The notes under the pieces: generated by a model
Databases searched by the model: none
What the model saw: the letters and a program-made list of their open reading frames with translations, nothing else
Told to the model about the DNA's origin: nothing
Position numbers and translations under genes: made by a program
In this document: positions 16,757 to 49,862 of the stretch, in pieces
Layout of the letters: each line of letters opens with the position of its first letter
Numbering within the stretch: the stretch's first letter is position 1
Source: Albidovulum litorale
GTDB taxonomy: Bacteria > Pseudomonadota > Alphaproteobacteria > Rhodobacterales > Rhodobacteraceae
Assembly: GCF_025751495.1 (NCBI RefSeq)
Contig: NZ_JAOWKZ010000004.1
Coordinates: 248,001 to 312,000 of the forward strand
DNA length: 64,000 nt
Direction: 5' to 3'

Positions 16757-16757
16757 G

Positions 16758-18443: not shown

Positions 18444-18630
18444 GGCCACGTATCCCGTCGTACACAGTTCAGGTGCCGCTTCTGACAAACCGATACTTTG
18501 GGATCAATTTCGCAATCCCGTCGGCCGATAGAAGAATCCTATCAAAAGCGACGCTTTCCAGTGATACAATTTCTCATGCTTCGGCGAAGAGCGATGGACA
18601 GAAAGCGCCGCCTTGCGTATCCCGGGCGTC

Positions 18631-18858
18631 ATGAAATGGGATCAGGAAATAGACGCGACCGGGCTTTTGTGCCCGTTGCCGGTGCTCAAGGCGCGCAAGC
18701 GGCTTTCAGGTATGGCGCAGGGTGCGGTGCTGCGGCTGATTGCAACTGACCCGGCTGCGGTGATTGACGTGCCGCATTTCTGTGCCGAGGCGGGGCATGA
18801 CCTGATTTCCACTGCTGAGGAAGGTGCGGCGCAGATCTACCTCATCCGCCGCCGCTGA
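18631..18858 (+). CDS. TusA-family sulfur-carrier protein
   Basis: This 75-residue cytoplasmic protein has the family signature L-L-C-P-L-P-V-L-K-A-R-K (Cys at about residue 14), whose Cys carries persulfide sulfur. Length and fold (I-A-T-D-P-A-A-V-I-D-V-P-H-F) fit TusA/SirA relatives. ATG 18631 is preferred to a TTG six codons upstream because it begins the conserved W-D-Q-E-I-D-A-T-G strand, though its ribosome site is weak. It is divergent from fdhB and overlaps the 3' end of the convergent tetR gene by 17 bases. Sulfur carriers are needed to sulfurate formate dehydrogenase (via FdhD) and to modify tRNA; the location suggests the former, by inference only. Confidence 0.8.
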   Translation: MKWDQEIDATGLLCPLPVLKARKRLSGMAQGAVLRLIATDPAAVIDVPHFCAEAGHDLISTAEEGAAQIYLIRRR

Positions 18859-19486
18859 CCGCGTCTTCGCGGTGGCGGGCCAGAAAGACCCGAAGTTCCT
18901 CATCCGAGGCAGGGCGGCCGGTGAAGGTTTCCAGATAGGTCGGAATGCGCCTGAGGCGCGCCTCCAGCGTCTCGGCGGTACCGAGCGCGATGTAACCGAC
19001 CTGCGTCAGATAGATCGCGTTGGCGCGGATATCGGCCTCTTCCGCAACATAGCCGTGACGTTGAAACATCGCGCGTATTGCGGCAATTCGGGCTGCGTCG
19101 GCCGCGTCGAAAGCGGCTTTCAGGGCGGTATCCGTCCGCGCCCAGTTTCGCATCGCGTGGTCAAGCGCCGCGTCGAAGAGTTCGGGGGTGATCCAGCAGT
19201 CGAAGAGATTAAGAACGGCGGCATTGATTGTCGGGGCGACGAGCTCAGTCTGGCGGACCAGGTTGCCAGTGTTTTTCTCCTGCCAGCGGGTGATCAGCGC
19301 CGCCAGCAATGCCTCGCGGTCGGGAAAGTGCCAGTAGAAGCTGGTTCGCGACAGACGTAGCCGCTTGGCCAGAGGCAGAATCTTTACCGCCTCCACCCCG
19401 CCTTCGATCAGCATCGCGTAAGCGGCCTCGATCCAGCCGCTTTCCGTGCCGCGCCAACCGCGTCCAAGGGGTTCCAAGTCGTCCAT
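18842..19486 (-). CDS. TetR-family transcriptional regulator
   Basis: This 214-residue regulator has an N-terminal helix-turn-helix (about residues 18-62) containing G-V-E-A-V-K-I-L-P-L-A-K-R-L-R-L-S-R-T-S and the hallmark F-Y-W-H-F-P-D-R-E-A-L. A variable all-helical ligand-binding domain follows. It is divergent from the StcD-like flavoprotein gene. The 148 bases between them hold a perfect 14-bp palindrome, the expected kind of operator, so it probably represses that gene and itself. The inducer is unknown. Its 3' end overlaps the tusA-like gene. Confidence 0.86.
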   Translation of the reverse strand: MDDLEPLGRGWRGTESGWIEAAYAMLIEGGVEAVKILPLAKRLRLSRTSFYWHFPDREALLAALITRWQEKNTGNLVRQTELVAPTINAAVLNLFDCWITPELFDAALDHAMRNWARTDTALKAAFDAADAARIAAIRAMFQRHGYVAEEADIRANAIYLTQVGYIALGTAETLEARLRRIPTYLETFTGRPASDEELRVFLARHREDAVSGGG

Positions 19487-19530
19487 ACCATCCGCTTACC
19501 GCGTAATTGGGGGATGCGAGCGTAAAAAAT

Positions 19531-19544
19531 CGACACATGTGTCG
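19531..19544. promoter_or_regulatory. palindromic operator, probably for the TetR regulator
   Basis: CGACACATGTGTCG is a perfect 14-bp palindrome flanked by A-rich and T-rich runs (19525-19530, 19546-19550). It lies 44 bases upstream of the tetR start and 90 bases upstream of the flavoprotein start. Its position and symmetry suit a TetR dimer. Confidence 0.65.
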
Positions 19545-19634
19545 GTTTTTGCCATTCTGAGGATCCAAAACCGCTCTAAAAGCGATTCCACAACAGCCCG
19601 GGACTGGCCCGGGCAATTCGACAGGACATGTGCC

Positions 19635-21677
19635 ATGGCTTCGAACGACCCGCTGTTGCAGCCCTATCAGCTCAAGCATCTGACGCTGAAAAACCGGATC
19701 ATGACGACGAGCCATGAGCCTGCCTATCCCGAAGATGGCATGCCGAAGGACCGCTATCGCGCCTATCATGTGGAGCGGGCAAAGGCGGGCGTGGCGATGA
19801 CGATGACGGCGGGTTCCGCCTCGGTTAGCCGCGACAGCCCGCCGGTCTTCAACAACGTGCTCGTCTGGAAGGACGAGGTCGTCGGCTGGATGCGGAAGCT
19901 CGCCGACGAGTGCCACGATCAAGGCTGCGCGGTGATGATCCAGCTCACCCATCTCGGTCGGCGGACAGGCTGGGACAAGGGCGCCTGGCTGCCCTCTGTC
20001 AGTTCCACCCGCGACCGCGAGCCGGCGCATCGCCGCTTCCCCAAGCTCGCCGAGGACTGGGACATCGCACGGATCATCGGCGATTTCGCCGATGCCGCCG
20101 AGCGGATGAAGCAGGCGGGCCTCGATGGGGTTGAGATCATGACCCACGGTCATCTCCTCGACCAGTTCATCTCGCCGCTCACCAACGAACTCGACGGGCC
20201 CTACGGCAAGGAAAGCCTCGCCACGAGGATGCGCCTGACGCTCGACATCATTGACGCGGTGCGTCGCCGTGTGGGCGACGCTTTTATTGTCGGCACGCGG
20301 TTTGCGCCCGATGAGGCCGAAGAGGGCGGCATCACCGAGGAAATGGGCCTCGAGATCGCGCATATGTTCAAGGCGAGCGGACAGGTCGACTACCTTAACA
20401 TCAACCGCGGCCGCATCCACACCGACCCGGCGATGACCGACATGATCCCGATCCAGGGCGCGCGCTCGGCGCCGCATCTCGACCTCGCCGGAAGGGTCCG
20501 GGCCGAAGTCGGCTTGCCGACCTTCCACGCCGCGCGCATTCCTGACGTGGCAACGGCGCGACACGCAGTCGTGACAGGGCAGCTCGACATGGTGGGCATG
20601 ACCCGCGCGCACATGGCCGACCCCTATATCGTCCAGAAGATCCGGGAAGGCCGCGAGGATGACATCCGACCCTGCGTCGGCGCGACATACTGCCTCGACC
20701 GAATCTATGGCGCGGGCGAGGCGCTTTGCATTCACAACGCGGCGACGGGCCGCGAACTGACGATGCCGCACAAGATCGCGCGCGCGGAGCAGCCGAAGCG
20801 GATCGTGATCGCGGGCGCTGGTCCGGCCGGCCTCGAGGCGGCGCGGGTCGCCGCCGAACGCGGCCACCATGTCACAGTGTTCGAGGCTGCCGACCAGCCC
20901 GGCGGTCAGGTCCGGCTGACCGCGCAGACGAAGCGCCGGTCCGAGATGATCGGGATTATCGACTGGCGCATGGCGCAATGTGCTGCGCGCGATGTAGAGT
21001 TCCGTTTCAACACCTGGGCCGAGGCCGACGATGTCATGGCCCTCAATCCCGATGTCGTGATCGTCGCGACGGGCGGCCTGCCGCACACGGACATCCTTTC
21101 GTCCGGCGACGACCTCACGGTTTCGGCCTGGGATATCCTTTCTGGCGACGCCAAGCCCGGCCGTGATGTCCTGATCTACGACGAGGCCGGCGACCATGCG
21201 GCGCTTCAGGCGGCCGACGTGCTTGCCGCGAGCGGCGCGAAGGTCGAAATCATGACCCGAGACCGCAGCTTCTCGCCCGATGTCATGGCGATGAACCTTG
21301 TCCCCTATATGCGGAGTTTGCAGGAGAAGGACGTCACTTTCACCGTGACCTGGCTTCTCAAGGCGGTACGCAAGGCGGGCAACCGGCTGATGGCGACACT
21401 CGGGACGGATTACTCCAAATTCACGAAGGACAAGGACTACGACCAGATCGTCGTGAACTGCGGCACGATGCCGAATGCCGACCTCTACTTCGACCTCAAG
21501 GAGCAGTCGGTCAACCGTGGCGAAGTCGACCATGCCGCACTGATCGACGGTCGGCCGCAGGAGTTGCGCACCAACCCCGAAGGGCGGTTCCAGCTTTTCC
21601 GCATCGGCGACGCGGTTTCGGCGCGGAACACGCATGCGGCGATCTATGACGCGCTTCGGCTGGTGAAAGACATCTGA
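19635..21677 (+). CDS. StcD-like flavoprotein (N-methylproline demethylase / NADH:flavin oxidoreductase family)
   Basis: This 680-residue enzyme has an N-terminal old-yellow-enzyme FMN barrel (Q-L-T-H-L-G-R-R at about 97, G-H-L-L-D-Q-F-I-S-P at about 170). A Cys-containing linker follows (C-V-G-A-T-Y-C ... L-C-I-H-N, about 346-366). The C-terminal part binds FAD/NAD (V-I-A-G-A-G-P-A-G-L-E-A-A at about 393 and a second dinucleotide site). Layout and size match trimethylamine dehydrogenase, 2,4-dienoyl-CoA reductase and the stachydrine-pathway demethylase StcD; the wording of the barrel fits StcD best. Demethylation would release formaldehyde. The second of the four usual cluster cysteines is Ala. 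ATG 19635 is used because upstream in-frame sequence runs through the regulator promoter. It is controlled by the divergent TetR, by inference. Confidence 0.78.
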   Translation: MASNDPLLQPYQLKHLTLKNRIMTTSHEPAYPEDGMPKDRYRAYHVERAKAGVAMTMTAGSASVSRDSPPVFNNVLVWKDEVVGWMRKLADECHDQGCAVMIQLTHLGRRTGWDKGAWLPSVSSTRDREPAHRRFPKLAEDWDIARIIGDFADAAERMKQAGLDGVEIMTHGHLLDQFISPLTNELDGPYGKESLATRMRLTLDIIDAVRRRVGDAFIVGTRFAPDEAEEGGITEEMGLEIAHMFKASGQVDYLNINRGRIHTDPAMTDMIPIQGARSAPHLDLAGRVRAEVGLPTFHAARIPDVATARHAVVTGQLDMVGMTRAHMADPYIVQKIREGREDDIRPCVGATYCLDRIYGAGEALCIHNAATGRELTMPHKIARAEQPKRIVIAGAGPAGLEAARVAAERGHHVTVFEAADQPGGQVRLTAQTKRRSEMIGIIDWRMAQCAARDVEFRFNTWAEADDVMALNPDVVIVATGGLPHTDILSSGDDLTVSAWDILSGDAKPGRDVLIYDEAGDHAALQAADVLAASGAKVEIMTRDRSFSPDVMAMNLVPYMRSLQEKDVTFTVTWLLKAVRKAGNRLMATLGTDYSKFTKDKDYDQIVVNCGTMPNADLYFDLKEQSVNRGEVDHAALIDGRPQELRTNPEGRFQLFRIGDAVSARNTHAAIYDALRLVKDI

Positions 21678-21777
21678 CGTCTTTCGCTTTCGTCTCCGTT
21701 CGTTATTGTGGTGGCTCGAATCCGGCGATCAGACCGGGAATGCCACCGCAAGCGACGGTCGGGAGGAAAGGCGAAAG

Positions 21778-22641
21778 ATGAGATATCTGGCTGCGAAAAC
21801 GGCTGCCGAGGCGGCAGGAGCCTTGGCTGCTGAAAAGGGTCTGACCCGGATTCTGGCGGGGGGCACGGATGTGCTCGTGCAGCTTCGATCCGGCATGGTC
21901 GAACCCGACCTGATTGTCGATATCAAGAAGATCCCCGGCATTCGCGGGATCGTCACCGAGAACGGCGGTTTCCGCATCGGGGCGGCTGTGTCGGGTGCCG
22001 AGATCGGCGAACACGCCGCGCTCTGCGCCGCATGGCCCGGTGTGGCCGAGGGCGTGCAGCTGATCGGCTCGACCCAGGTGCAGGGCCGCTGCACCATGGT
22101 CGGCAATCTCTGCAATGCCTCGCCGGCAGGCGATGCGGTGCCCTCGCTGGTCGCCGCCAACGCTGTCGCCCGAATCGCTGGTCCTGATGGCGAACGCGAT
22201 TGTCCCGTCGCGGACGTTCCGGCAGGCCCCGGCAAGACCACGCTGAAGAAGGGCGAGATCATCACGTCGATCTTCCTGCCCGCGCGGCCCGAACACGCGG
22301 CCGACGCCTATCTTCGCTTCATCCCGAGGACCGAGATGGACATCGCGGTGGCTTCGGCTGGCGTGTCGCTGGAACTGAACGCCGATGGCACGGTAAAGGT
22401 CGCGCGCATCGCGCTGGGCGCCGTCGCGCCGACAGTTGTTCTTGCCGAAGCGGCAGGCAAGGCGCTGGTCGGCACGAAACTCGATGACGACGCGCTCGCG
22501 GCGATGGCCAAAGCCTGCGAAGCCATCTGCAACCCGATCGACGACAAGCGCGGGACCATCGCCTTCCGCACCAAAACCGCAGGAACGCTCGCCAGGCGCG
22601 CTGCCCTTATCGCCTATACCCGCGCCGGAGGTTCGAAATGA
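21778..22641 (+). CDS. molybdenum hydroxylase FAD subunit (CoxM-like)
   Basis: This 287-residue protein is the FAD-binding medium subunit of a xanthine-dehydrogenase/CO-dehydrogenase family enzyme. It carries the flavin motifs I-L-A-G-G-T-D-V-L-V-Q-L (about residue 30) and T-M-V-G-N-L-C-N-A-S-P-A-G-D (about 108). Electrons pass from the Mo site via the iron-sulfur subunit to this FAD. The start ATG 21778 follows GGGAGGAAAGG. It overlaps the next gene by 4 bases. It is in line after the StcD-like gene with a 100-base gap, so it could be in the same transcript. Confidence 0.87.
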   Translation: MRYLAAKTAAEAAGALAAEKGLTRILAGGTDVLVQLRSGMVEPDLIVDIKKIPGIRGIVTENGGFRIGAAVSGAEIGEHAALCAAWPGVAEGVQLIGSTQVQGRCTMVGNLCNASPAGDAVPSLVAANAVARIAGPDGERDCPVADVPAGPGKTTLKKGEIITSIFLPARPEHAADAYLRFIPRTEMDIAVASAGVSLELNADGTVKVARIALGAVAPTVVLAEAAGKALVGTKLDDDALAAMAKACEAICNPIDDKRGTIAFRTKTAGTLARRAALIAYTRAGGSK

Positions 22642-23114
22642 CCAAGCTGCATGTCTCCACCACGATCAATGGCGATGCGTATGAATTCCTCTGCGCGCCG
22701 GAGGAAACGCTGCTCGACGTGCTCAGGAACCGCCTTGGCCTGACCGGCGCAAAGGAAGGCTGCGGCACCGGCGATTGCGGTGCCTGTTCGGTAACGGTGA
22801 ACGGGCGGCTGGTCTGTTCCTGTCTGGTGCTGGGTGCCGAGGCCGACGGGGCAGAGGTCACGACCATCGAGGGCATGGCCGATGGCGACGAGTTGCACCC
22901 GCTGCAGCGCCATTTCATCGACGGCGCGGCGCTGCAATGCGGGGTCTGCACGCCCGGCATTCTCGTTGCCGCCAAGGCGCTTCTGGAGAAGAACCCGGAC
23001 CCGAGTGACGAGGAACTGCGCTATTGGCTCGCCGGCAATCTCTGCCGCTGTACCGGTTACGACAAGATCATCCGCGCCGTTCAGGCGGCGGCGGCCGAAA
23101 TGAGGGGGGCCTGA
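22638..23114 (+). CDS. molybdenum hydroxylase [2Fe-2S] subunit (CoxS-like)
   Basis: This 158-residue small subunit has two [2Fe-2S] domains: a plant-ferredoxin type (C-G-T-G-D-C-G-A-C-S-V ... V-C-S-C, about residues 41-63) and a helical one (C-G-V-C-T-P-G and C-R-C-T-G-Y, about 101-140). Length and motifs are those of CoxS/XdhA-type subunits. It is the middle gene of the operon, overlapping the FAD-subunit gene by ATGA and lying one base before the large-subunit gene. Confidence 0.92.
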   Translation: MTKLHVSTTINGDAYEFLCAPEETLLDVLRNRLGLTGAKEGCGTGDCGACSVTVNGRLVCSCLVLGAEADGAEVTTIEGMADGDELHPLQRHFIDGAALQCGVCTPGILVAAKALLEKNPDPSDEELRYWLAGNLCRCTGYDKIIRAVQAAAAEMRGA

Positions 23115-23115
23115 C

Positions 23116-25356
23116 ATGTCCTTGGACGAATACACCCGTCGCGAGTTCAAGCAGGTCGGCACGCGGGTCCGCCGCCCGGATGGGGTGGATAAGGTCACCG
23201 GTCGGGCGATGTACGGTGCCGATGCGACTGCGCCCGGCATGCTCACGGGCCGCATCCTGCGGTCCCCGCATGCCCACGCGCGGATCAAGAGCATCGACGT
23301 CTCGGCGGCGCTGGCGCTGAAGGGCGTGAAGGCCGTGATCACCGGCGATGATTTCGCCGTTCCCGAGGATGATTTCATCCGAGACGTGCAGGAAAATTGC
23401 ATGGCGCGTGGCAAGGCACTTTACGATGGCCATGCCGTCGCCGCGGTCGCCGCGACCGATGCGGCCACGGCGAAGGCCGCGCTCAAGGCCATCAAGGTCG
23501 ATTACGAAATCCTGCCCCACGTGACCGATGTCGATGAGGCGATGAAGCCCGGCGCGCCGGTCGTGCAGGCGGGCCGGGTGCAGGAAAATGTGCCGAAGGG
23601 ATATTCGGAGAACGTCACCGCGCATTTCGAATTCGGTCACGGCGACATGGAAGCCGGGTTCGCCAAGGCCGACAAGATCATTGAGCGCAGCTTCAAGACC
23701 GCCGCCACCCATCAGGGCTATATCGAACCCCATGCCTGCCTCGCCTCGGTCACCTCGGACGGCAAGGCCGATCTCTGGTGCTGCACGCAAGGACAATTCT
23801 ATGTCCGCACGCTCTGCGCCACGATCATGGGGATGGAGGCGAGCCAGTTGCGCGTTACCGCCTCCGAAATCGGCGGCGGCTTTGGCGGCAAGACGACGGT
23901 CTTCATCGAACCCGTGGCGCTGATGCTGTCGAAGAAAGCCGGCCGACCGGTCAAGATCGTGATGAGCCGGGACGAGGTTTTCCGGGCGACCGGCCCGACC
24001 GTTTCGTCGTCCTCCGACGTCAAGATCGGCATGTCCAAGGACGGCCGGATCACGGCGGCAGAGGCGACGCTTCGTTATCAGGGCGGCGCGTTTCCCTGCG
24101 GCACGACCGAATTCGGCTGCTCGGCGGCCTTCGCGGCCTATGATCTGGACGCCGTCCGCACCTACGGCTGGTCGGTCATGACCAACCGCCCGAAAGAGGC
24201 CGCTTATCGCGCCCCGGGTGCGCCGATGGCGGTCTATGCGGTTGAAAGCGTGGTCGATGAACTGTGCCTGCATTTCGGCCTCGATCCGCTTGAGACCCGC
24301 CTGAAGAACGCCGCGCGCAAGGGCACGAAATCCTCCTACGGGCCGACCTTCCCTGATATCGGGTTGGTGGCGACGCTGGAGGCGGCAAAGGCCCATCCGC
24401 ATTACAAGGCCCCGCTGAAGCCCGGTCAGGGTCGCGGCCTGTCCTGCGGCTTCTGGTTCAATTTTGGCGGCAATACCTGTGTCAGCCTCAACGTGAACAC
24501 CGACGGCACGGTCGGCATTACCGAGGGCAACCCGGATATCGGCGGGTCCCGCGCCTCGATCAGCCTGATGGCGGCCGAGGAACTGGGCATTCCCTATGAA
24601 CGTATTCGCACCATCGTCGCCGACACCTCGTCATTGGGGTACAACGATGTGACAGATGGCAGCCGCGTGACCTTCGCGGTGGGGCTGGCCACGATCAAGG
24701 CTGCCCGCGATGCGATCAGGAAAATGAGCGCGCGCGCGGCAAAGATATGGGGCATCGACCCCGAGGCCGTGGAATGGAAGGATGGCGCTGCTGTGCCCGC
24801 TGGACCCAATGCCGGAAAGTTCCCGCCGATGACGCTCGCCGAGATCGCTGCGGTTTCGGCCGAGACGGGGGGGCCCATCGCGGGGCATTACGAGGTCAAT
24901 GCCGATGGCGCGGGCGTCAGCTTTGGCGTCCATCTCTGCGATGTCGAGGTCGACCGTGAGACCGGCGCGACCAAGGTGTTGCGCTACACCGTCTTCCAGG
25001 ATGCCGGCAAGGCCGTGCACCCCGACTATGTCGAGGGACAGATGCAGGGCGGGGCCGTGCAGGGCATCGGCTGGGCGCTGAACGAGGAGTATATCTACGG
25101 GGCGGACGGTCGGCTTCAGAACCCGACTTTCCTCGACTACCGCGTTCCGGTGGCCTCTGACCTGCCGATGATCGAGACGGTGATCCTTGAAATCCCGAAC
25201 CCGGGCCACCCCTACGGCGTGCGCGGTGTGGGCGAAACCGGGATCGTGCCGCCGCTCGCCGCGCTCTCGAACGCGGTGTCGCACGCGACCGGCGTCCGCA
25301 TGACGGAATTGCCGATGTCGCCGCCGCGGGTGCTGAAGGCCATCGGGGGCGCCTGA
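23116..25356 (+). CDS. molybdenum hydroxylase large (molybdopterin) subunit (CoxL-like)
   Basis: This 746-residue catalytic subunit belongs to the xanthine oxidase superfamily. Visible features: the ald_Xan_dh_C N-terminal domain (V-R-R-P-D-G-V-D-K-V-T-G-R-A, about 18-31), E-I-G-G-G-F-G-G-K-T (about 253-262), the loop A-Y-R-A-P-G-A-P, and the C-terminal catalytic Glu in G-V-G-E-T-G-I-V-P-P. CO dehydrogenases have A-Y-R-C-S-F-R at the loop, so this is not a CO oxidiser. The substrate is probably a nitrogen heterocycle or aldehyde. No xdhC- or coxDEF-type maturation gene follows; instead a MoaD-like gene starts at the stop codon. Neighbours are the StcD-like enzyme and an amine-type importer. 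Confidence 0.88.
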   Translation: MSLDEYTRREFKQVGTRVRRPDGVDKVTGRAMYGADATAPGMLTGRILRSPHAHARIKSIDVSAALALKGVKAVITGDDFAVPEDDFIRDVQENCMARGKALYDGHAVAAVAATDAATAKAALKAIKVDYEILPHVTDVDEAMKPGAPVVQAGRVQENVPKGYSENVTAHFEFGHGDMEAGFAKADKIIERSFKTAATHQGYIEPHACLASVTSDGKADLWCCTQGQFYVRTLCATIMGMEASQLRVTASEIGGGFGGKTTVFIEPVALMLSKKAGRPVKIVMSRDEVFRATGPTVSSSSDVKIGMSKDGRITAAEATLRYQGGAFPCGTTEFGCSAAFAAYDLDAVRTYGWSVMTNRPKEAAYRAPGAPMAVYAVESVVDELCLHFGLDPLETRLKNAARKGTKSSYGPTFPDIGLVATLEAAKAHPHYKAPLKPGQGRGLSCGFWFNFGGNTCVSLNVNTDGTVGITEGNPDIGGSRASISLMAAEELGIPYERIRTIVADTSSLGYNDVTDGSRVTFAVGLATIKAARDAIRKMSARAAKIWGIDPEAVEWKDGAAVPAGPNAGKFPPMTLAEIAAVSAETGGPIAGHYEVNADGAGVSFGVHLCDVEVDRETGATKVLRYTVFQDAGKAVHPDYVEGQMQGGAVQGIGWALNEEYIYGADGRLQNPTFLDYRVPVASDLPMIETVILEIPNPGHPYGVRGVGETGIVPPLAALSNAVSHATGVRMTELPMSPPRVLKAIGGA

Positions 25357-25601
25357 TGGTCAAGGTCCTGCTCTGGGGTTCGCTCAGGCAGGCCACGGAC
25401 GGGCTGACCGAGGTCGAGGTCGAGGCGACGAATTTCAAGCAACTCCTCGACCGGCTGGGCGAGGCGTATCCCGGCTTGCAACCGCAGATTAAGCGCGGCG
25501 TGTCGATGTCGTTGAACGGTGTGATCTACCGCGAGGCGTGGTTTACGGAGATTCCGCCGGATAGCGAGGTTGTGCTGATGCCTTATATGACCGGCGGATA
25601 G
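25356..25601 (+). CDS. MoaD/ThiS-family ubiquitin-like sulfur carrier
   Basis: This 81-residue beta-grasp protein ends in the diagnostic Gly-Gly (M-T-G-G), which is normally adenylated and converted to thiocarboxylate. Its ATG overlaps the last base of the large-subunit stop codon, so it is coupled to the hydroxylase operon. Usual roles are molybdopterin synthase small subunit or thiamin sulfur carrier. A copy tied to a molybdenum hydroxylase suggests a dedicated cofactor role. There is no MoaE- or ThiG-like partner here. Confidence 0.78.
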   Translation: MVKVLLWGSLRQATDGLTEVEVEATNFKQLLDRLGEAYPGLQPQIKRGVSMSLNGVIYREAWFTEIPPDSEVVLMPYMTGG

Positions 25602-25802
25602 GGCGATTTTCCGGTGATTTTCGGCGTGGCAGTCGTTTTTATTCCGGATCTGTCGTAATTTCGTCAAAGCTCTTGCGCGATTTGACGCATTTCGTATGAA
25701 AGGCGTCGTTCTTGCCGAACGGGTTGAAAACCGCACGGTGTTCCGATTTAGTCAGGACAAGAGTCAAAAAGACTCACGAAAAGCAACACGGGGAGCCCGA
25801 AT

Positions 25803-26909
25803 TTGACCAATGCCAAAACCGGCGGCGACGCCGCATTCGTCGAATTTGAACACGTTCAAAAAAGCTATGACGGGGAAACGCTGGTCGTCAAAGACCTGAA
25901 CCTCTCGATCGCGAAGGGCGAGTTCCTGACGATGCTCGGGCCGTCCGGTTCGGGCAAGACCACCTGCCTGATGATGCTGGCGGGGTTCGAGACCGCGACG
26001 CATGGCGATATCCGGCTGGGTGGCAGGCCGATCAACAACATCCCGCCGCACAAGCGTGGTATCGGCATGGTGTTCCAGAACTATGCGCTTTTCCCGCACA
26101 TGACAGTGGCCGAAAACCTTTCCTTTCCGTTGGAAGTACGCGGCATGGGCAAGTCAGAGCGCGAGGCGAAGGTCAAGCGCGCGCTCGACATGGTGCAGAT
26201 GGGCCAATTCGGCGGCCGCCGTCCGGCGCAGATGTCGGGTGGCCAGCAGCAGCGTGTCGCCTTGGCGCGCGCGCTCGTCTTCGAGCCGGAACTGGTGTTG
26301 ATGGACGAACCCTTGGGCGCGCTCGACAAGCAGTTGCGCGAACACATGCAGTTCGAGATCACCCGCCTGGCGCATGACCTTGGCATCACGACGGTCTACG
26401 TCACCCACGACCAGACCGAGGCGCTGACGATGTCGGACAATGTCGCTGTTTTCGATGACGGCCGCATCCAGCAGCTTGCCCCGCCCGATGTGCTTTATGA
26501 AGAACCGGCCAACAGCTTCGTCGCCCAGTTCATCGGCGAAAACAACACGCTTCTCGGTGCTGTGAAAGAGATCAAGGGCGATATCGCCGTCGTAGAACTG
26601 GACGATGGCGAACTGATCGACTGCAAGCCGGTCAACGTCTCCAAGCCCGGTGAACGCACCCGCGTGTCGATCCGGCCCGAGCGGGTGGAGTTCAACAAGG
26701 CCCGGCTTCAGCCCGGCGCCCATACGCTCAAGGCCGAGGTGCTTGAATTCATCTATATGGGCGACATCTTCCGCACCCGCCTGCGCGTTGCTGGCAACGA
26801 CGAATTCATCGTCAAGACCCGCAACGCCCCCGATCAGGTTCGGCTTAAGCCGGGCGCGCAGATCGAGATCGGCTGGCTGCCGCAGGATTGCCGCGCGCTC
26901 GACGCCTGA
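25803..26909 (+). CDS. ABC importer ATP-binding protein, polyamine (PotA) type
   Basis: This 368-residue ATPase has Walker A L-G-P-S-G-S-G-K-T-T (about 58-67), signature M-S-G-G-Q-Q-Q-R-V-A-L, Walker B L-V-L-M-D-E-P-L-G-A-L-D, the switch His in V-Y-V-T-H-D, and a C-terminal TOBE domain (about 280-360). Length and TOBE domain place it with PotA/FbpC-type importers. The start appears to be TTG (25803), with GGGGA about eight bases upstream; no ATG is in frame before the Walker A region. It heads the operon ATPase, binding protein, permease, permease. Confidence 0.88.
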   Translation: MTNAKTGGDAAFVEFEHVQKSYDGETLVVKDLNLSIAKGEFLTMLGPSGSGKTTCLMMLAGFETATHGDIRLGGRPINNIPPHKRGIGMVFQNYALFPHMTVAENLSFPLEVRGMGKSEREAKVKRALDMVQMGQFGGRRPAQMSGGQQQRVALARALVFEPELVLMDEPLGALDKQLREHMQFEITRLAHDLGITTVYVTHDQTEALTMSDNVAVFDDGRIQQLAPPDVLYEEPANSFVAQFIGENNTLLGAVKEIKGDIAVVELDDGELIDCKPVNVSKPGERTRVSIRPERVEFNKARLQPGAHTLKAEVLEFIYMGDIFRTRLRVAGNDEFIVKTRNAPDQVRLKPGAQIEIGWLPQDCRALDA

Positions 26910-26924
26910 ACAAAACAAGCGAAT

Positions 26925-26958
26925 TTGGTCCGGATGCCTATCCCGGGGTGCGGACCAA
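26925..26958 (+). repeat. intergenic hairpin between the ATPase and binding-protein genes
   Basis: The arms TTGGTCCG (26925-26932) and CGGACCAA (26951-26958) are perfectly complementary around an 18-base loop that can itself pair CCC with GGG. It sits 35 bases before the binding-protein start. It probably marks mRNA processing or stability rather than termination, as no U-tract follows. Confidence 0.55.
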
Positions 26959-26992
26959 CAAGATCAAGACGGGAGCTTATAGGGAGTAAGCA

Positions 26993-28087
26993 ATGAAACT
27001 GACTACAACTCTTCTTGCGACATCCGCGTTGGTGGTGTCCGCCGGGGCTGCCTCGGCCATCGACCTGACGCTGGTGTCCTGGGGCGGCGCTTACCAGAAG
27101 TCGCAGCTCAAGGCCTATGCCGAGCCGTACATGGCCGCCAATCCGGACGTGAACATCATCTGGGACGAAAGCTCGGCCGAAGCCGTGGCGAAGCTCCGCG
27201 CGATGAACGAAGCGGGCAACCTGACCTGGGATCTGGTCGACGTTGACGCCGCTGACAGCTTCCGTCTTTGCGACGAAGGGCTGGCGATGGAATACGACCC
27301 GGACGAACTGCTCGCCCCGGCACCGGACGGCACTCCGGCCTCCGAAGATTTTGGCGCTCAGATCGTCAACGACTGCTATATCCCGCAGATCGTCTATTCC
27401 ACCACCTTCGGCTACCGCACCGATCTGGTCGGCGACACGCCGCCGTCGAGCATCTGCGACGTCTTTGACCTGGAAGCCTATCCCGGCAAGCGCTCGCTGG
27501 AAAAGCGCCCGATCAACAACATGGAATGGGCTCTCCTGTGTGACGGGGTCGCCAAGGAAGACATCTATGACGTCTTGGCGACCGACGAAGGCCAGCAGCA
27601 GGCGCTCGCCAAGCTCGACACGATCAAGGATCAGGTGATCTGGTGGTCGGCCGGCGCTGACACCCCGCAGCTTCTGGCAGACGGTGAAGTCGTGATGGGC
27701 TCGACCTATAACGGTCGGCACTTCTCCGCCATCGCCGAACAGAACCAGCCGATCGGCATGCTCTGGGATGCGCAGGTGTTCAGCTTTGACGGTTGGATCA
27801 TTCCGACCGGTCTGCCGGAGGACCGTCTGGCTGTTGTGAAGGACTTCCTGAAGTTCGCCACCGACACCCAGCGTCTCGCGGATCAGGCCAAGTACATCTC
27901 GTACGGCCCGGCACGTGCTTCTTCGGCTCCGCTCGTTGGTCAGCATGCCGAACTGGGCATCGACATGGCGCCGCATATGCCGACCGATCCGGCCAACGCG
28001 CAGAACGTGTTCTACTACAACTTCGAGTTCTGGGCTGACTATCGCGACGATATCGACGCGAAATTCCAGGCCTGGCTCGCTGGCTAA
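26993..28087 (+). CDS. periplasmic substrate-binding protein, polyamine (PotD) type
   Basis: This 364-residue protein has a classical signal peptide (residues 1-22, cleaved after A-S-A) and the PotD-like opening of the mature chain, L-T-L-V-S-W-G-G-A-Y-Q-K-S-Q. W-D-L-V-D-V-D near 80 is also typical. Four cysteines (for example L-C-D-E-G and N-D-C-Y) could form disulfides. The spermidine/putrescine-binding family also carries other cationic or N-methylated compounds, so the ligand is not settled. Hairpins on both sides of the gene (26925-26958, 28099-28122) may raise its mRNA level over the other subunits. Confidence 0.87.
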   Translation: MKLTTTLLATSALVVSAGAASAIDLTLVSWGGAYQKSQLKAYAEPYMAANPDVNIIWDESSAEAVAKLRAMNEAGNLTWDLVDVDAADSFRLCDEGLAMEYDPDELLAPAPDGTPASEDFGAQIVNDCYIPQIVYSTTFGYRTDLVGDTPPSSICDVFDLEAYPGKRSLEKRPINNMEWALLCDGVAKEDIYDVLATDEGQQQALAKLDTIKDQVIWWSAGADTPQLLADGEVVMGSTYNGRHFSAIAEQNQPIGMLWDAQVFSFDGWIIPTGLPEDRLAVVKDFLKFATDTQRLADQAKYISYGPARASSAPLVGQHAELGIDMAPHMPTDPANAQNVFYYNFEFWADYRDDIDAKFQAWLAG

Positions 28088-28098
28088 GACTGCCTTTC

Positions 28099-28122
28099 GG
28101 AAGGGGCCCCGGGGCCCCTTCC
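28099..28122 (+). repeat. strong hairpin between the binding-protein and permease genes
   Basis: These 24 bases are a perfect palindrome (arm GGAAGGGGCCCC) able to fold into a very stable stem 12 bases after the binding-protein stop. The permease genes follow on the same strand within 50 bases and no U-tract is present, so it more likely causes partial termination or blocks 3' decay. Confidence 0.7.
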
Positions 28123-28171
28123 ACCCATTCGTTTGTGACTTTGAAGACCAATAATCTCTGACGGGGGAGAC

Positions 28172-29809
28172 ATGAGCGACACTACCGATACCGGTCCGAT
28201 GCGGGCCGCCGACGGCACGCCGCTGAAGAAAAGCCTCGCCCGCGCACTCAGGCGGCAGAAGCTCAGGGCGCTTGCGCTGATCGCGCCTCTCCTGTTCTTT
28301 GTGCTGGTGACCTTCGTGGTGCCCATCGCCGACATGCTGTTCCGGTCGGTGGAAAACCAGATCGTCTCCGACACCCTCCCGCATACCGTGCGGCTGCTGT
28401 CCAGCTGGGATTCCTCAACCGGAGAAGCGCCGGATGAGCCGGTCTACGCCGCTCTCGCCGTCGATTTTCAGGCTGCGGCCGAGGAAAAGAACCACACCAA
28501 GCTCGGCACCCGTCTGAACTATGAAAATCCTGGACTTTCCTCGATGTTCCGCAAGACCGGACGCGGGGCCGACGATATCGGCAAGGCGTCGGCCAAAAGG
28601 CTGACCGAACTCGATCCGGCCTGGAAGGACGGCGCGACTTGGGCCGCGCTTCTGGGGTCCGATGACTGGCTGGCCAATATGGCGGAATGGTCGAAGGACG
28701 ATGGCCGCCAGCCGCGCTTCTCGGCCCGTGCCGAGGCTACTTCCGCGCTGCCTTTGACCTCCGATGTCTACACGGCGTTCGCACGGGTCGTACGGACGGA
28801 AGACAAGAAAAGCGCGGTCGAAACCAAACCTTGGCCCGTGCTCTACACCGCGCTGGAACAGGACCTTGCAACGGCTTCGCCCGAGGCTTTGGCGGCAGTG
28901 GGCGGTCCGTCTGCGGGTCTGTTGCAGGCTGCGGGCGCGGCGGTTCCCGGGTTTGAACCGATCTCCTACAAGCAAGCCTTCGTCGATATGGACAAGGGTT
29001 GGGGCGAGGTCGACAGCTGGCAAACCATCCAGTCCTATGCCGCGCGCTATACGCCGGGTTATTTCCTGAACGCCGTTGATCTTGAAAAAAGCCCCGACGG
29101 CATTCAGCAGCGCCCCGAACAGCAGCAGATCTACCTCATGCTCTTCTGGCGCACGATCTGGATGTCGATGCTGATCACCTTCTGCTGCTTGCTTCTGGGG
29201 TATCCGGTGGCGTGGATCCTGGCCAACCTGCGCGCCTCCACCGCGAACGTGTTGATGATCCTCGTGCTGCTGCCGTTCTGGACGTCGCTTCTGGTGCGGA
29301 CCTCGGCCTGGAAGGTGATGTTGCAGCAGCAGGGTGTGATCAACGACATCCTCGTCTGGCTTGGCCTTGTCGATGACGCCAGCCGATTGGTGCTGATCAA
29401 CAACCAGTTCGGCACGATCGTTGCGATGACGCATATCCTGCTGCCGTTCATGATCCTTCCGCTTTACTCGGTGATGAAGACGATCCCGCCATCCTATCTG
29501 CGCGCCGCAAAGTCGCTTGGTGCGACCAACTGGACGGCCTTCTGGAGGGTCTATTTCCCGCAATCGGTGCCGGGCATCGGTGCAGGCTCGATCCTGTGCT
29601 ACATCCTCGCCATCGGCTACTACATCACGCCGGAACTCGTCGGCGGTACGCAAGGCGTGTTCATCTCGAACCGGATCGCCTTCCACATCTCGTCCTCGCT
29701 GAACTGGGGTCTGGCGGCGGCTTTGGGCACGATCCTCTTGGGGGCGGTCCTGCTGCTCTACTACGTCTACGACAAGATCGTCGGCATCGATAACGTGAAG
29801 CTGGGGTAA
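28172..29809 (+). CDS. ABC importer permease, PotB type, with large periplasmic insert
   Basis: This 545-residue inner-membrane permease has helix 1 at about residues 33-56, then a non-membrane segment of about 260 residues, then five or more helices from about 325. The coupling motif is near E-S-type position as Y-L-R-A-A-K-S-L-G-A-T-N-W-T-A-F-W-R-V-Y (about 448-467), the EAA loop contacting the ATPase. PotB proteins are usually about 280 residues; the extra 260 all lie between helices 1 and 2, outside the membrane. The insert is Ala/Lys/Glu-rich with no known domain that I recognise. It is followed 5 bases later by the second permease gene. Confidence 0.85.
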   Translation: MSDTTDTGPMRAADGTPLKKSLARALRRQKLRALALIAPLLFFVLVTFVVPIADMLFRSVENQIVSDTLPHTVRLLSSWDSSTGEAPDEPVYAALAVDFQAAAEEKNHTKLGTRLNYENPGLSSMFRKTGRGADDIGKASAKRLTELDPAWKDGATWAALLGSDDWLANMAEWSKDDGRQPRFSARAEATSALPLTSDVYTAFARVVRTEDKKSAVETKPWPVLYTALEQDLATASPEALAAVGGPSAGLLQAAGAAVPGFEPISYKQAFVDMDKGWGEVDSWQTIQSYAARYTPGYFLNAVDLEKSPDGIQQRPEQQQIYLMLFWRTIWMSMLITFCCLLLGYPVAWILANLRASTANVLMILVLLPFWTSLLVRTSAWKVMLQQQGVINDILVWLGLVDDASRLVLINNQFGTIVAMTHILLPFMILPLYSVMKTIPPSYLRAAKSLGATNWTAFWRVYFPQSVPGIGAGSILCYILAIGYYITPELVGGTQGVFISNRIAFHISSSLNWGLAAALGTILLGAVLLLYYVYDKIVGIDNVKLG

Positions 29810-29814
29810 GAGAT

Positions 29815-31032
29815 ATGAGCATCGGTCATCCCGAAATTCCGAAGCCGAGCCTCACCGGCTTTACCGTTCCGCTTATGGCCGTTGCAGGGCTGTTGCTGGG
29901 ATATGTCGTCGGCACCGCAAAGGGGCAGCCCTTGCTGGGGCTGATCGCCGGGGCGGCGGTTGCGGCGGCCCTCGGGTTTGTCCTGGCCAGTTTCGTGCCG
30001 GACCGCCGTGTCGGCCGGCTTGGTACGGCGGTGGTGGCGGCAATCGCGGGCTTTGTCATGGCTGGCGTCTCCGGCGCGGTGGTGGGCGTGATCATCGGCC
30101 TGATCGTAAGCTGGTTCGCCTATTGGCTTTCCACCGGCGATTACCGCAGCACCGTTCCGGTCTATGCGACCGCGGGCGATGTGCTGTGGCACAATACGTT
30201 CAAGCTGATCTGCGGGCTGATCTTCTTCTTCCTGATCGCTCCGATCGTTGTGGTCTTGCCGCTGAGTTTCAACGCTCAGGACTTCTTTACCTTCACGCCC
30301 GAGATGCTGGCCTTCGACCCCGAAGGCTATTCGCTGAAGCATTACCGAGATTTCTTTAACAATCCCGACTGGACCCGGCCGCTGAAGAACTCGTTCATCA
30401 TCGCGCCCTTGGCCACGATCATCTCGGTGTCGCTGGGCACACTGGCCGCGATCGGTCTTTCGCAGAGCCATGTACCCGGTCGCCGGGCGATCATGGCGAT
30501 CCTGATCTCGCCGATGATCGTGCCGCTGATCATCTCGGCGACCGGCATGTTCTTCTTCTATTCGAAGCTCGGCAACTGGATGGAAGGCAATCTTGGCCTG
30601 AGCCAGGACTTCATCGGCTATGTGAAGGTGGTCCTTGCCCATGCGGTACTCGGAATTCCCTTTGTTATCATCACGGTAACAGCAACGCTCGTGGGCTTTG
30701 ACCGGTCGCTGACCCGGGCTGCGGCGAATATGGGGGCGGGGCCTGTGCGGACCTTCTTCAAGGTGCAGATGCCGCTCATTCTGCCGGGCGTCATCTCGGG
30801 TGGCCTCTTTGCCTTCATCACCTCGTTTGACGAGGTCGTGGTGGTGCTTTTCGTCGGTTCGGCGAGCCAGAAGACGCTGCCTTGGCAGATGTTTACCGGT
30901 CTGCGCGAGCAGATTTCGCCAACGATCCTTGCGGTCGCCACGGTGCTTGTCACCTTCTCGATCATCCTTCTGACCACGGTCGAACTGCTGCGCCGCCGGT
31001 CGGAACGGCTGCGGGGCATGAGCCCGACCTGA
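29815..31032 (+). CDS. ABC importer permease, PotC type, with extra N-terminal membrane domain
   Basis: This 405-residue permease is about 140 residues longer than normal PotC. The extra N-terminal part (about 1-125) holds four short hydrophobic segments rich in Gly/Ala/Val (about 15-35, 40-60, 70-88, 90-105). The regular permease core starts near residue 130 (C-G-L-I-F-F-F-L-I-A-P-I-V-V-V-L-P). The EAA loop R-A-A-A-N-M-G-A-G-P-V-R-T-F-F-K-V-Q (about 301-318) contacts the ATPase. It is the last gene of the importer operon, followed by a terminator-like hairpin. Confidence 0.86.
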   Translation: MSIGHPEIPKPSLTGFTVPLMAVAGLLLGYVVGTAKGQPLLGLIAGAAVAAALGFVLASFVPDRRVGRLGTAVVAAIAGFVMAGVSGAVVGVIIGLIVSWFAYWLSTGDYRSTVPVYATAGDVLWHNTFKLICGLIFFFLIAPIVVVLPLSFNAQDFFTFTPEMLAFDPEGYSLKHYRDFFNNPDWTRPLKNSFIIAPLATIISVSLGTLAAIGLSQSHVPGRRAIMAILISPMIVPLIISATGMFFFYSKLGNWMEGNLGLSQDFIGYVKVVLAHAVLGIPFVIITVTATLVGFDRSLTRAAANMGAGPVRTFFKVQMPLILPGVISGGLFAFITSFDEVVVVLFVGSASQKTLPWQMFTGLREQISPTILAVATVLVTFSIILLTTVELLRRRSERLRGMSPT

Positions 31033-31094
31033 GACCGTCCGATCCCGGTCGGCAGGGCGTCGGCCTTCGGTCTGCAAAACGTATGGCAAGAGCG

Positions 31095-31117
31095 CACGCC
31101 GGGTTAATCCCGGCGTG
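31095..31117 (+). terminator. hairpin after the importer operon
   Basis: CACGCCGGG (31095-31103) and CCCGGCGTG (31109-31117) form a perfect 9-bp stem with loop TTAAT, 62 bases after the last permease stop. It is followed by a T-containing but not T-rich stretch (TATCGCTTT). It is the probable operon terminator. A further inverted repeat, CGCAAAG-TCCG-CTTTGCG, lies at 31160-31177. Confidence 0.6.
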
Positions 31118-31266
31118 TATCGCTTTGGGCCGCGTGCGCTGGATGGAGATTACGTCCTGCGCAAAGTCCGCTTTGCGGACGAAGTGGGTATTTGCTGCAT
31201 TTTCATCAAAGGCTGCTTTGGGGCGGATCTGCTGTTTGCCAATTTCTCAGCAACGTCTTCCGTCTC

Positions 31267-31677
31267 TCAGGATTCTCTCGTCCAGACCAGCGTTCCGACG
31301 ACAGGGTTTTCTAGGCCGGGCATCTTAGCCGGGGCAGATTCGATGTTCATGGTGTCGCCATCCAGACGGTAGCGCCGCCGCTGCTCGCCACCAACCCAAG
31401 GCTCGAACCAGGCCATTTCTACGCTGGTCACGAATTCTTGGCCCTCGATTCTGTATTGTCCGGAATATGCAACCATGGCGTCGAAAGCGGCGGCTTTGTC
31501 TTCGACGGTCGTAGGAGCCTTTCGGCCAGACGGCGTCAGTAGGGCGATCATTCGCCCCGATGGTTGGATCACAATGCATCCAATCGGCTCACGCCCGAAC
31601 GGCATATGCTTTTCACCGGTAACAGTATCGGTGAGGTAGAAAGAGTTAAGTGTCCAGGTCCCAATTGGAGACGGCAT
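31267..31677 (-). CDS. lipocalin-like domain protein
   Basis: This 136-residue protein opens with P-I-G-T-W-T-L-N-S-F, the usual start of the bacterial lipocalin-like (Lipocalin_5) family. It keeps G-R-M-I-A-L-L-T and a run of alternating beta strands ending R-R-R-Y-R-L-D-G-D. It has no signal peptide with the chosen start. ATG 31677, with AGGA nine bases upstream, is preferred to in-frame starts at 31755 and 31707. It probably binds a small hydrophobic ligand in the cytoplasm; the role is unknown. It stands alone between two larger units and looks less GC-rich than its neighbours. Confidence 0.72.
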   Translation of the reverse strand: MPSPIGTWTLNSFYLTDTVTGEKHMPFGREPIGCIVIQPSGRMIALLTPSGRKAPTTVEDKAAAFDAMVAYSGQYRIEGQEFVTSVEMAWFEPWVGGEQRRRYRLDGDTMNIESAPAKMPGLENPVVGTLVWTRES

Positions 31678-31856
31678 CTGCGACGATCCTGTGACTGAGT
31701 AGTACATCACTAAACGCAACTCGCAATTCGTTCCAATCGTTTGTTGCCACGCCACAGCCTAGCACCGTTCTTAACGCGCCCAGAGCCGTCGTTAGCTGCT
31801 AAGGGGCGAAAAAGAAAAATTTAAACTTCTGCTCCCGGCTCAGATCCGACATCGCG

Positions 31857-32801
31857 TTAGCCGAGCAGGCTGAGCCAGACCGAGACGGTCACGACCGAAA
31901 GCGCGGTGGCGAAAAGGACGGCCGTCGCCGCCACCCGTTTGCCGACGCCGTACATATTGGCGAAGACATAGGCGTTGACCCCGGGCGCCATCGCGGCCGT
32001 GACAACGGCCGAGCGGAACGGAGCCTGCGGAAGGTCGAGCGTTTGCCCCAGCGTCCAGGTGATCGTCGGGTGCAGGATCAGACCCACGGCGCAGACGTAG
32101 AGGACGGTCAGCAGGTCCCCCTCGGGCCGGTAACGCACCAGTACCCCGCCGAGCCCGAACAAGGCGGCGGGCAGGGCGGCTCGGATCATCAGGTCGATGG
32201 CTTCGGTCAGCACGCCCGGCAGGGTGGTGCCCGTCAGGTTGACCGCGAAGCCGAGCGCAATGCCGATCACCAGCGCGTTCTTCACCATTGCGGTGATCAC
32301 AGCGCGGACGGTCGTGAAGACGCCCGCGCCGCCATGTCGTGCGATCTCCATCGCGGTGATGCCGAGCGCGTAACAGAAGGGCGAATGCAGGGCGATGATC
32401 GCGTAGTTCGCAGCCAGCGCATCGGAGCCATAGGCGCGTTCGGTGATGGGCAGGCCGAGCAGCAAAGAATTGGAGAAGAGGCAGCAGAAACCGATGGCCA
32501 CTGCATCGGTCCACGGACGGCCAAATAGAAACCTCGCGCCCAGAAGGCCAACGAAAAAGCCCGTCGTGGCGCCGGTGTAGAACGACACGAGCAAGGGCCA
32601 CTGGAAGGTCTGGTCGAGATCGAGTGTCGAGATGGCGCGGAACAGAAGGCAGGGGATCGCGAAGTTCTGGGTGAACTTCATCAACCCGTCGACACCCTGA
32701 TCACTGAAGGCCCGAAACCTGACCGCGAGATACCCGAACCCGATGACCAGAAAGACCGGCAGCGTGACTTCCAGAAGCGTCTGGATCGGCAGGCCGGGCA
32801 A
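31857..32801 (-). CDS. AEC-family (auxin efflux carrier-like) transporter
   Basis: This 314-residue integral membrane protein has about ten hydrophobic helices in two halves and the N-terminal V-F-L-V-I-G-F-G-Y and F-A-I-P-C-L-L-F-R typical of the bacterial AEC/MleP group. These are secondary carriers for malonate, malate or other organic acids; the substrate here is unknown. Its ATG lies 5 bases after the stop of the MBL-fold gene, so it may be the last gene of the long housekeeping operon that starts at 38468. Confidence 0.82.
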   Translation of the reverse strand: MPGLPIQTLLEVTLPVFLVIGFGYLAVRFRAFSDQGVDGLMKFTQNFAIPCLLFRAISTLDLDQTFQWPLLVSFYTGATTGFFVGLLGARFLFGRPWTDAVAIGFCCLFSNSLLLGLPITERAYGSDALAANYAIIALHSPFCYALGITAMEIARHGGAGVFTTVRAVITAMVKNALVIGIALGFAVNLTGTTLPGVLTEAIDLMIRAALPAALFGLGGVLVRYRPEGDLLTVLYVCAVGLILHPTITWTLGQTLDLPQAPFRSAVVTAAMAPGVNAYVFANMYGVGKRVAATAVLFATALSVVTVSVWLSLLG

Positions 32802-44406: not shown

Positions 44407-44420
44407 CGGTCTTTCCCTTC

Positions 44421-45896: not shown

Positions 45897-46086
45897 CTTC
45901 AGTGCTCCGCAGTTTCCAGCCGCCTTCGACGTCATGACGATCAGGCTTGCGGGGGAAGTATCGCCCGGGAGCGGATGGGACCGGGTCTGAATTTCCCGAT
46001 TCTGGCAGACGATTCATCTGAAATCGGCCGCAAATACAGTCAAAATTTTGGGGCGGGTTATTCTAGGGTTCTGCCGGGCGTCCGGG

Positions 46087-46578
46087 TCAGCCGAGTCCTT
46101 CGACCAGAGCTTCGATAGGCGGCACCGAGGGCCCCTTGACCGGTTTGGTCACGACATAGGTGAAATAGCGGGCGATGCGGGCATCGCCGTTCAGAAGGTC
46201 GTCGATGAAGTGCTGATAGGCGTCGATATCACGGGTGACGATCTGCAAAAGGTAGTCGAATCCGCCCCCCAGCGCCCAGCAGGCGGTGATCTCGTCATGG
46301 CGGCGGGTGGTTTCCTCAAAATCGCGCTGCGCCTTGGCGCCGTGATCGGCAAGTTCGACGGTGACGAAGACAGTCACGTTGGGGCCGAGCTTTCTGAGCG
46401 AGATGGCCGCGTGATAGCCTTCGATGATCCCGGCCTTTTCAAGGCGTTTCAGCCTCTCCCAGCAGGGCGTGGGGGACAGGTTTATGCGTGACGCAAGCTC
46501 GGCCTTGGTGATGCGGCCCTCTGTCGAGAGAACCTTCAATATGGCGATATCCCGCCTGTCGAGTTTCAGCAAAGACAC
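46087..46578 (-). CDS. Lrp/AsnC-family regulator of the ectoine cluster
   Basis: This regulator of about 163 residues has an N-terminal helix-turn-helix (I-L-K-V-L-S-T-E-G-R-I-T-K-A-E-L-A-S-R-I then S-P-T-P-C-W-E-R-L-K-R-L) and a C-terminal RAM ligand domain (Y-L-L-Q-I-V-T-R-D-I-D-A-Y). It is divergent from eutB (86-base spacer) and upstream of the dehydrogenase and transaminase genes, exactly where asnC/doeX sits in known ectoine clusters. It may sense an ectoine-derived diamine, by analogy. The start is GTG (46578) very close to GGGAGG, or a TTG two codons on with better spacing. Confidence 0.88.
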   Translation of the reverse strand: MSLLKLDRRDIAILKVLSTEGRITKAELASRINLSPTPCWERLKRLEKAGIIEGYHAAISLRKLGPNVTVFVTVELADHGAKAQRDFEETTRRHDEITACWALGGGFDYLLQIVTRDIDAYQHFIDDLLNGDARIARYFTYVVTKPVKGPSVPPIEALVEGLG

Positions 46579-46664
46579 CGCCTCCCGGTCACGTTACCGT
46601 GGAGGTCAGACATATTGGACTTCGGTGCCAAGGTCCAAGGTCAAATTCGGAAAGGGCCGCTGAC

Positions 46665-47657: not shown

Positions 47658-47659
47658 AC

Positions 47660-48652: not shown

Positions 48653-48670
48653 CCGCGAAAGTAGCCTCAG

Positions 48671-49858: not shown

Positions 49859-49862
49859 GCCC

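Follow-up and report, generated by a model that had tools for sequence, protein, structure and literature searches.

A 64,000-nucleotide stretch of the Albidovulum litorale genome (contig NZ_JAOWKZ010000004.1, positions 248,001 to 312,000), referred to here as the window, carries a TetR-family regulator gene that diverges from a row of genes for a StcD-like flavoprotein, a three-subunit molybdenum hydroxylase, a small ThiS/MoaD-fold carrier protein, and a Pot-type importer. A preliminary description of this DNA had proposed that these genes jointly import, demethylate, and hydroxylate an N-methylated or heterocyclic amine. We found that the row is a lineage-level syntenic block rather than a widely conserved pathway, and with moderate confidence we interpret the stretch as a lineage-specific block of three self-contained modules (tetR/stcD, coxMSL-moaD, and potADBC). 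The gene set and its order stood as described: open reading frames and hidden Markov model (HMM) families agree on tetR on the minus strand, followed on the plus strand by stcD-coxM-coxS-coxL-moaD-potA-potD-potB-potC (Table 1). Likewise, no described pathway with this exact set was found in the literature searched. Many molybdenum hydroxylases known from genomes have no known substrate, and the part of the row worth following is the family formed by the hydroxylase and its carrier, the coxMSL-moaD unit being the new element.

The three modules mostly occur apart

The conservation survey covered 198 genomes from the bacterial family, nearly all from different genera, among which draft contigs can hide adjacency (the window genome itself comprises 4.05 Mb in 13 contigs). 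Presumed paralogs were excluded, namely matches up to 59% identity for the demethylase and up to 58% for PotD, and all hydroxylase matches were retained. The hydroxylase large subunit is present in 61 of these genomes (E 1e-150) and PotD relatives of at least 63% identity in 110. All three modules are found in 23 genomes, and in only one of these, the window genome, do they lie within 15 kb. Demethylase and hydroxylase share 36 genomes and are within this distance in two (the window genome and G068, where they are on opposite strands); demethylase and PotD share 59, with two such cases (the window genome and its congener G010); and hydroxylase and PotD share 38, with a single case. Co-occurrence is not significant for any pair (p 0.064, 0.12, and 0.22, in the order given). 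These counts do not support conservation of the gene set across the family. Separate occurrence of the units in most genomes, named beforehand in the preliminary description as an outcome that would count against its pathway, is largely what was found.

A second survey started from the hydroxylase and covered 80 loci, some of which are shortened by contig ends (L-numbers denote fetched loci and G-numbers genomes of the family; counts of neighbors are minimum values, obtained with open reading frames and identity limits that we chose ourselves). Four of them carry the complete series of demethylase, hydroxylase, carrier, and importer (L036, L039, L043, and L045), and L038 carries demethylase, hydroxylase, and carrier before its contig ends, so that the order is kept in six contigs when the window is included. 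Other combinations are also found: hydroxylase and importer without the demethylase in L037, a demethylase a few kilobases away on the opposite strand in L048, and tetR, demethylase, and importer without the hydroxylase in G010. The gene hemE flanks the row or its remainder in L037, L038, L039, L043, and G010, and the nearest named relative with the whole row is Defluviimonas aestuarii (strain JCM 18630, locus L036), whose CoxL is 98% identical. Identities to the window are discordant among modules in L039 (demethylase 74%, CoxL 87%, and PotA 93%), and those for L045 are 90, 85, and 92%, respectively. This pattern is best read as a single block ancestral to a Defluviimonas-like group, with modules later lost or exchanged.

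A molybdenum hydroxylase with its own ThiS/MoaD-fold carrier

The hydroxylase has flavin adenine dinucleotide (FAD), 2x[2Fe-2S], and molybdopterin subunits, which constitute a complete xanthine-dehydrogenase-family set by Pfam. The large subunit aligns best to the alpha subunit of 4-hydroxybenzoyl-CoA reductase (1rm6, 335 bits), and it falls below the cut-off of all 13 NCBIfam models that it matched. Two specific assignments were rejected. The active-site loop of CoxL in carbon monoxide (CO) dehydrogenase carries the copper-binding cysteine, and at the position of AYACSF in the CO dehydrogenase 8uem the window protein shows AYRAPGAP; the earlier label of CoxMSL-like is thus true of the architecture only. 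Xanthine dehydrogenase proper was set aside because the XdhABC equivalog scores lie under their cut-offs (P0004, 434 bits versus 780; P0002, 184 versus 310; P0003, 173.6 versus 217). The enzyme shares its three-subunit architecture and domains with the xanthine-dehydrogenase/4-hydroxybenzoyl-CoA reductase superfamily, but it represents a separate family, most members of which have a ThiS/MoaD-fold carrier gene in fourth place, and the unit contains no XdhC.

On plasmids, 35 records match the large subunit at E 1e-170, all with at least 61.9% identity, and the next match has only 35.5% (in a spread of 60 of the 278 records). The large subunit is found in 74 of 385 genomes of the class (E 1e-200), with family members down to 49% identity, and the hydroxylase also occurs in roseobacters, SAR116, Sinorhizobium, and Mesorhizobium. 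The search for a conserved partner gene family around the hydroxylase across lineages found none, and a catabolic partner conserved across lineages was rejected; recurring neighbors are confined to some loci of limited lineages. Such neighbors include TupA/TupB-type genes (L061, L064, L069, L070, L071, and L100), a GcvT-domain oxidoreductase (seven loci), and an acyl-CoA synthetase (six loci).

The carrier consists of 81 residues with a ThiS domain and a C-terminal Gly-Gly, and the ATG of its gene overlaps the TGA of coxL, in agreement with the translational coupling noted earlier. In one set of loci the carrier gene lies behind coxL in 83 of 83 cases, with a Gly-Gly end in 81; in the two others (L047 and L075) the gene is near a contig end. 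A wider set of 78 loci, made up of 27 of the 80 fetched hydroxylase loci, three plasmid loci, and 48 loci from the class, has the carrier in 68, lacks it in nine, and includes one that could not be scored (68/77). Its presence and absence on the tree of these loci require two changes, and the nine loci without it have CoxL proteins of at most 60% identity. Among plasmids, the carrier matches 37 records, which include all 35 with the large subunit. The claim of a complete hydroxylase with a dedicated MoaD-fold partner was borne out.

The carrier resembles MoaD, the small subunit of molybdopterin synthase, in its fold, length, and Gly-Gly end, but it differs in having no MoaE next to it (potA comes next in the window) and in giving no alignment with the genome's own MoaD. 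The latter is encoded by the second ThiS-family gene of the genome, directly before MoaE on another contig. The two XdhC-type genes of the genome are likewise located on other contigs, where each has another hydroxylase large-subunit gene in its vicinity, no more than 1 kb away in one case and about 3 kb away in the other. Because of its retention, the missing alignment with the genome's own MoaD, and the location of the XdhC genes elsewhere, the carrier most likely serves the maturation of the hydroxylase's own cofactor. A bolder proposal, which we regard as speculative and rather unlikely in its full form, is that coxMSL-moaD would be an undescribed hydroxylase system widespread in Alphaproteobacteria, in which the private carrier, not XdhC, would deliver the activating sulfur to the molybdenum center, and which would be wired into TetR-controlled use of N-methylproline in the Defluviimonas-like group. 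No account of coxMSL-moaD was found in the literature searched on related topics, although no search by that name was made. The presence of its own carrier in most loci gives the enzyme a clean genetic handle, with one 81-residue gene set against the cofactor of one enzyme.

Cofactor-related genes are also present elsewhere in the window, at 50849-54101 and 57038-57841, about 25 to 32 kb from the hydroxylase. They comprise moeA, whose product has an additional N-terminal domain, together with mobB, mobA, and a gene for a TupA-type tungstate-binding protein that scores under the cut-off.

A flavoprotein of the StcD/HpbA N-methylproline demethylase type

The flavoprotein has 680 residues and the flavin mononucleotide (FMN)-binding triosephosphate isomerase barrel and FAD/NAD domains (Pfam) required for StcD or HpbA. 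It is 70% identical to Paracoccus plasmid proteins annotated as N-methyl-L-proline N-demethylase HpbA and 68% identical to a protein encoded on pSymB of Sinorhizobium meliloti, the sole match on that replicon at E 1e-50. PMC12239276 places stcD on pSymB; because the protein is the only match there, we took it to be StcD. In a quick tree of 73 sequences, from which those shorter than 500 residues or with stops were omitted, the window protein, the pSymB copy, and annotated HpbA fall in one clade of 50 sequences (Shimodaira-Hasegawa-like approximate likelihood ratio support 100). By family membership, then, the flavoprotein is an N-methylproline demethylase of the StcD/HpbA type.

At residues ~347-368, one of the four cysteines of the 4Fe-4S motif of trimethylamine dehydrogenase is replaced by alanine, a replacement seen in 56 of the 73 aligned sequences, including the window protein, StcD, and HpbA. 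The 4Fe-4S cluster of the flavoprotein may be altered or absent.

Of 50 StcD-type loci checked, 20 have a divergent tetR gene no more than 260 bp upstream, including those of S. meliloti pSymB and Paracoccus HpbA, and the earlier identification of a StcD-like flavoprotein with its TetR was confirmed. The core GACACNNGTGTC of a perfect palindrome, a candidate TetR operator, precedes 13 of the 20 StcD-type genes with a divergent tetR versus 4 of the 30 without one when up to two mismatches are allowed (Fisher p 0.0002, an optimistic value because the motif was picked after inspection and two of the sequences are near copies). The only other matches to this core in the window, at 39180 and 52951, have three mismatches each, and the window scan found no second copy of the operator-like palindrome ahead of coxM or potA. 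The latter has a promoter-like element of its own, and the suggestion that the row forms a single regulatory unit was not supported; regulation would at best be common to the demethylase and the hydroxylase.

Relatives of the demethylase have neighbors in keeping with the use of proline betaine. Within 40 fetched neighborhoods, a gene for a ProC-like reductase follows the StcD-type gene in six and one for an MTTB-family methyltransferase precedes it in four, and L116, with a demethylase 82% identical to that of the window, has both genes alongside. An annotated HpbA gene of Paracoccus is near genes for a proline/glycine betaine ATP-binding cassette transporter and a pyrroline-5-carboxylate-reductase-type protein, whereas the neighbors of the window gene are those for the molybdenum hydroxylase and the Pot-type importer. 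The window genome has seven MTTB-family methyltransferase genes on contigs C3, C7, C8, C9, and C10, whose products may begin the demethylation of betaines ahead of StcD. In L132 and in TM1040, molybdenum hydroxylases of a different kind occur near StcD-type genes; by a rough estimate only, we judged this no more frequent than chance and rejected it as a meaningful link.

A Pot-type importer with frequent stand-alone relatives

The importer has all four components, and HMM searches identified PotA-, PotB-, PotC-, and PotD-type subunits. PotA passes the cut-off of the NCBIfam potA subfamily, but PotD has no NCBIfam match at E 0.001, so that the term PotABCD-like applies as a family-level label. 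The nearest solved chains to PotD are 8jv1 (spermidine/putrescine-binding), followed by two sensor fusions, one of them a sensor of gamma-aminobutyric acid (GABA), and 4eq7/4euo. Residues R242 and D266 align with identical residues of 4eq7 and are shared by all 16 sequences aligned, which include those of the window and of stand-alone importers; their counterparts in Atu4243 bind GABA. PotB (545 amino acids) and PotC (405 amino acids) extend far beyond the permease domain at their N termini, the L043 versions having 423 and 295 amino acids and the Escherichia coli models 285 and 257. PMC10130141 describes potFGHI of Ruegeria pomeroyi as taking up cadaverine, putrescine, and spermidine, a system that could not be mapped to the window importer.

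In their neighbors, stand-alone homologs differ from the known polyamine and GABA importers. In 20 such neighborhoods we found an M24 gene in 11, an M20 deacetylase gene in 10, and a PRK07480 aminotransferase gene in five, and the three M24 proteins scanned gave 580 to 606 bits versus a cut-off of 613 for ectoine hydrolase (DoeA). The stand-alone importer, the M24 gene, and the M20 deacetylase gene are all present in nine loci (L156, L158, L160, L161, L162, L164, L168, L172, and L174), which possibly represent a separate uptake-and-hydrolysis system. Of 27 pot loci, 20 have an element resembling that before potA at the matching place, with at most two mismatches to TTGCAA/TTTAGT, including 14 of the 20 stand-alone ones, for a motif that was picked after inspecting the pot upstream regions.

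Interpretation of the row

In our preferred explanation, each module would work by itself. A TetR repressor acting on the palindrome would control the StcD/HpbA-type flavoenzyme, which most likely strips the N-methyl group from N-methylproline to give proline and a one-carbon (C1) unit. The coxMSL-moaD unit, which in the window begins 100 bp behind stcD, is probably transcribed by readthrough from the promoter under tetR control, and potADBC, probably with its own promoter, would import a small cationic or zwitterionic amine. The row makes co-induction of an N-methylproline demethylase and the hydroxylase testable. Several observations weigh against such independence. The co-occurrence of demethylase and hydroxylase, in 36 genomes, is slightly above chance (Fisher p 0.064). 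Demethylases within the block are 72 to 99% identical to one another, which makes the block older than a chance neighborhood, and selection may therefore hold it together. The spacing between stcD and coxM is also short in five relatives (100 to 221 bp), and the scan reported no plus-strand terminator between moaD and potA, which lie some 200 bp apart in the window; one long transcript is therefore possible. Finally, a sigma-70 consensus scan of 19450-31900 returned no promoter-like site (0 versus 2.5 expected), the potA element included, and therefore gives the proposed potA promoter no backing.

Some of these observations would suit one integrated pathway. An N-methylated amine or heterocycle, such as proline betaine, N-methylproline, homarine, or a comparable compound, would enter through PotADBC and be demethylated by the StcD-type enzyme, and the molybdenum enzyme would hydroxylate the ring or oxidize an aldehyde. 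The order kept in six contigs and the lack of a plus-strand terminator between modules in the scan speak for it, and the Arg and Asp of PotD aligned with 4eq7 would suit a zwitterion. We consider this joint pathway possible but doubtful and do not favor it: just 1 of the 23 genomes with all modules has them together, module combinations vary (L037 and G010), the potA promoter-like element is common to stand-alone importers, and the PotD residues checked are identical in importers without the other modules. A narrower version, that the hydroxylase unit belongs to the degradation of homarine (N-methylpicolinate), is very improbable. A 2026 study reportedly describes a conserved bacterial homarine degradation pathway in which Mgd takes part, an N-heterocycle hydroxylase and an N-demethylase would be chemically suited to it, and the hydroxylase occurs in roseobacters and SAR116. 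However, the hydroxylase copy of R. pomeroyi DSS-3 (SPO_RS21915-21930, with coxL as SPO_RS21925 and moaD as SPO_RS21930) has no transporter alongside; the gene upstream of it is hypothetical, and downstream lie racemase and GntR genes on the opposite strand. Somewhat more credible than either, though still on the unlikely side, is physical neighborhood only, with three unrelated units having landed next to hemE, at a single permissive site of the chromosome, in the ancestor of a Defluviimonas-like group and then been inherited and partly lost. Each unit does occur without the others in many genomes, L037 and G010 each lack one module, and the hemE flank is common to five loci; nevertheless, order and orientation are kept despite up to 28% divergence of the demethylase, and coxM follows stcD closely in the window.

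Surrounding genes

Table 1. Features of the row and its immediate surroundings, in window coordinates
Feature	Positions	Strand	Basis or remark
TetR-family regulator	18842-19486	-	Pfam TetR_N; divergent from demethylase gene
Perfect palindrome CGACACATGTGTCG, candidate TetR operator	19531-19544	.	Core GACACNNGTGTC
StcD/HpbA-type FMN/FAD N-methylproline demethylase	19635-21677	+	HMM Oxidored_FMN + Pyr_redox_2
CoxM-type FAD subunit	21778-22641	+	FAD_binding_5, CO_deh_flav_C
CoxS-type 2x[2Fe-2S] subunit	22638-23114	+	Fer2, Fer2_2
CoxL-type molybdopterin subunit, xanthine-dehydrogenase-family hydroxylase	23116-25356	+	MoCoBD_1, MoCoBD_2, Ald_Xan_dh_C
ThiS/MoaD-fold carrier, GG end	25356-25601	+	ThiS 31.1 bits
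Promoter-like TTGAAA-17-TTTAGT before potA	25724-25752	+	Similar element in other pot loci
PotA-type ATPase	25803-26909	+	ABC_tran + TOBE_2; TIGR01187 potA 372.6 bits, cut-off 355.6
PotD/Atu4243-type binding protein	26993-28087	+	SBP_bac_8
PotB-type permease	28172-29809	+	BPD_transp_1
PotC-type permease	29815-31032	+	BPD_transp_1
AEC (auxin efflux carrier) family permease	31857-32801	-	TIGR00946 89 bits, under cut-off 246

Note that the start of coxM was placed as tabulated because relatives conserve a start there, the open frame itself running from 21706. A formate dehydrogenase is encoded just upstream of the row, as the preliminary description had it; its alpha and NuoE/F-type beta genes span 13976-18488. 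The further idea that the C1 unit released would feed this enzyme was not supported by comparison: among the other composite or partial loci only the near-identical L036 has it, hemE stands in its place in L038, L039, and L043 and in the partial loci L037 and G010, and we rejected the enzyme as a conserved link. In Mesorhizobium sp. AR07 the hydroxylase unit adjoins genes for formate dehydrogenase, TusA, Glp, FdhD, and MobA, a clue that concerns the supply of molybdenum and not C1 feeding. A TusA-type sulfur-transfer gene, missing from the earlier list, is also present in the window (18631-18858, plus strand), between the formate dehydrogenase genes and tetR. At the other end of the row, the AEC permease gene is close to potC in L036, L037, L039, L043, L045, L117, L163, and L166 as well. 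Farther downstream, positions 43033-50852 hold a cluster for the degradation of ectoine and hydroxyectoine, with genes for an aminotransferase, a succinate-semialdehyde-dehydrogenase-like protein, an Lrp-type regulator, EutB, EutC, DoeA, and DoeB.

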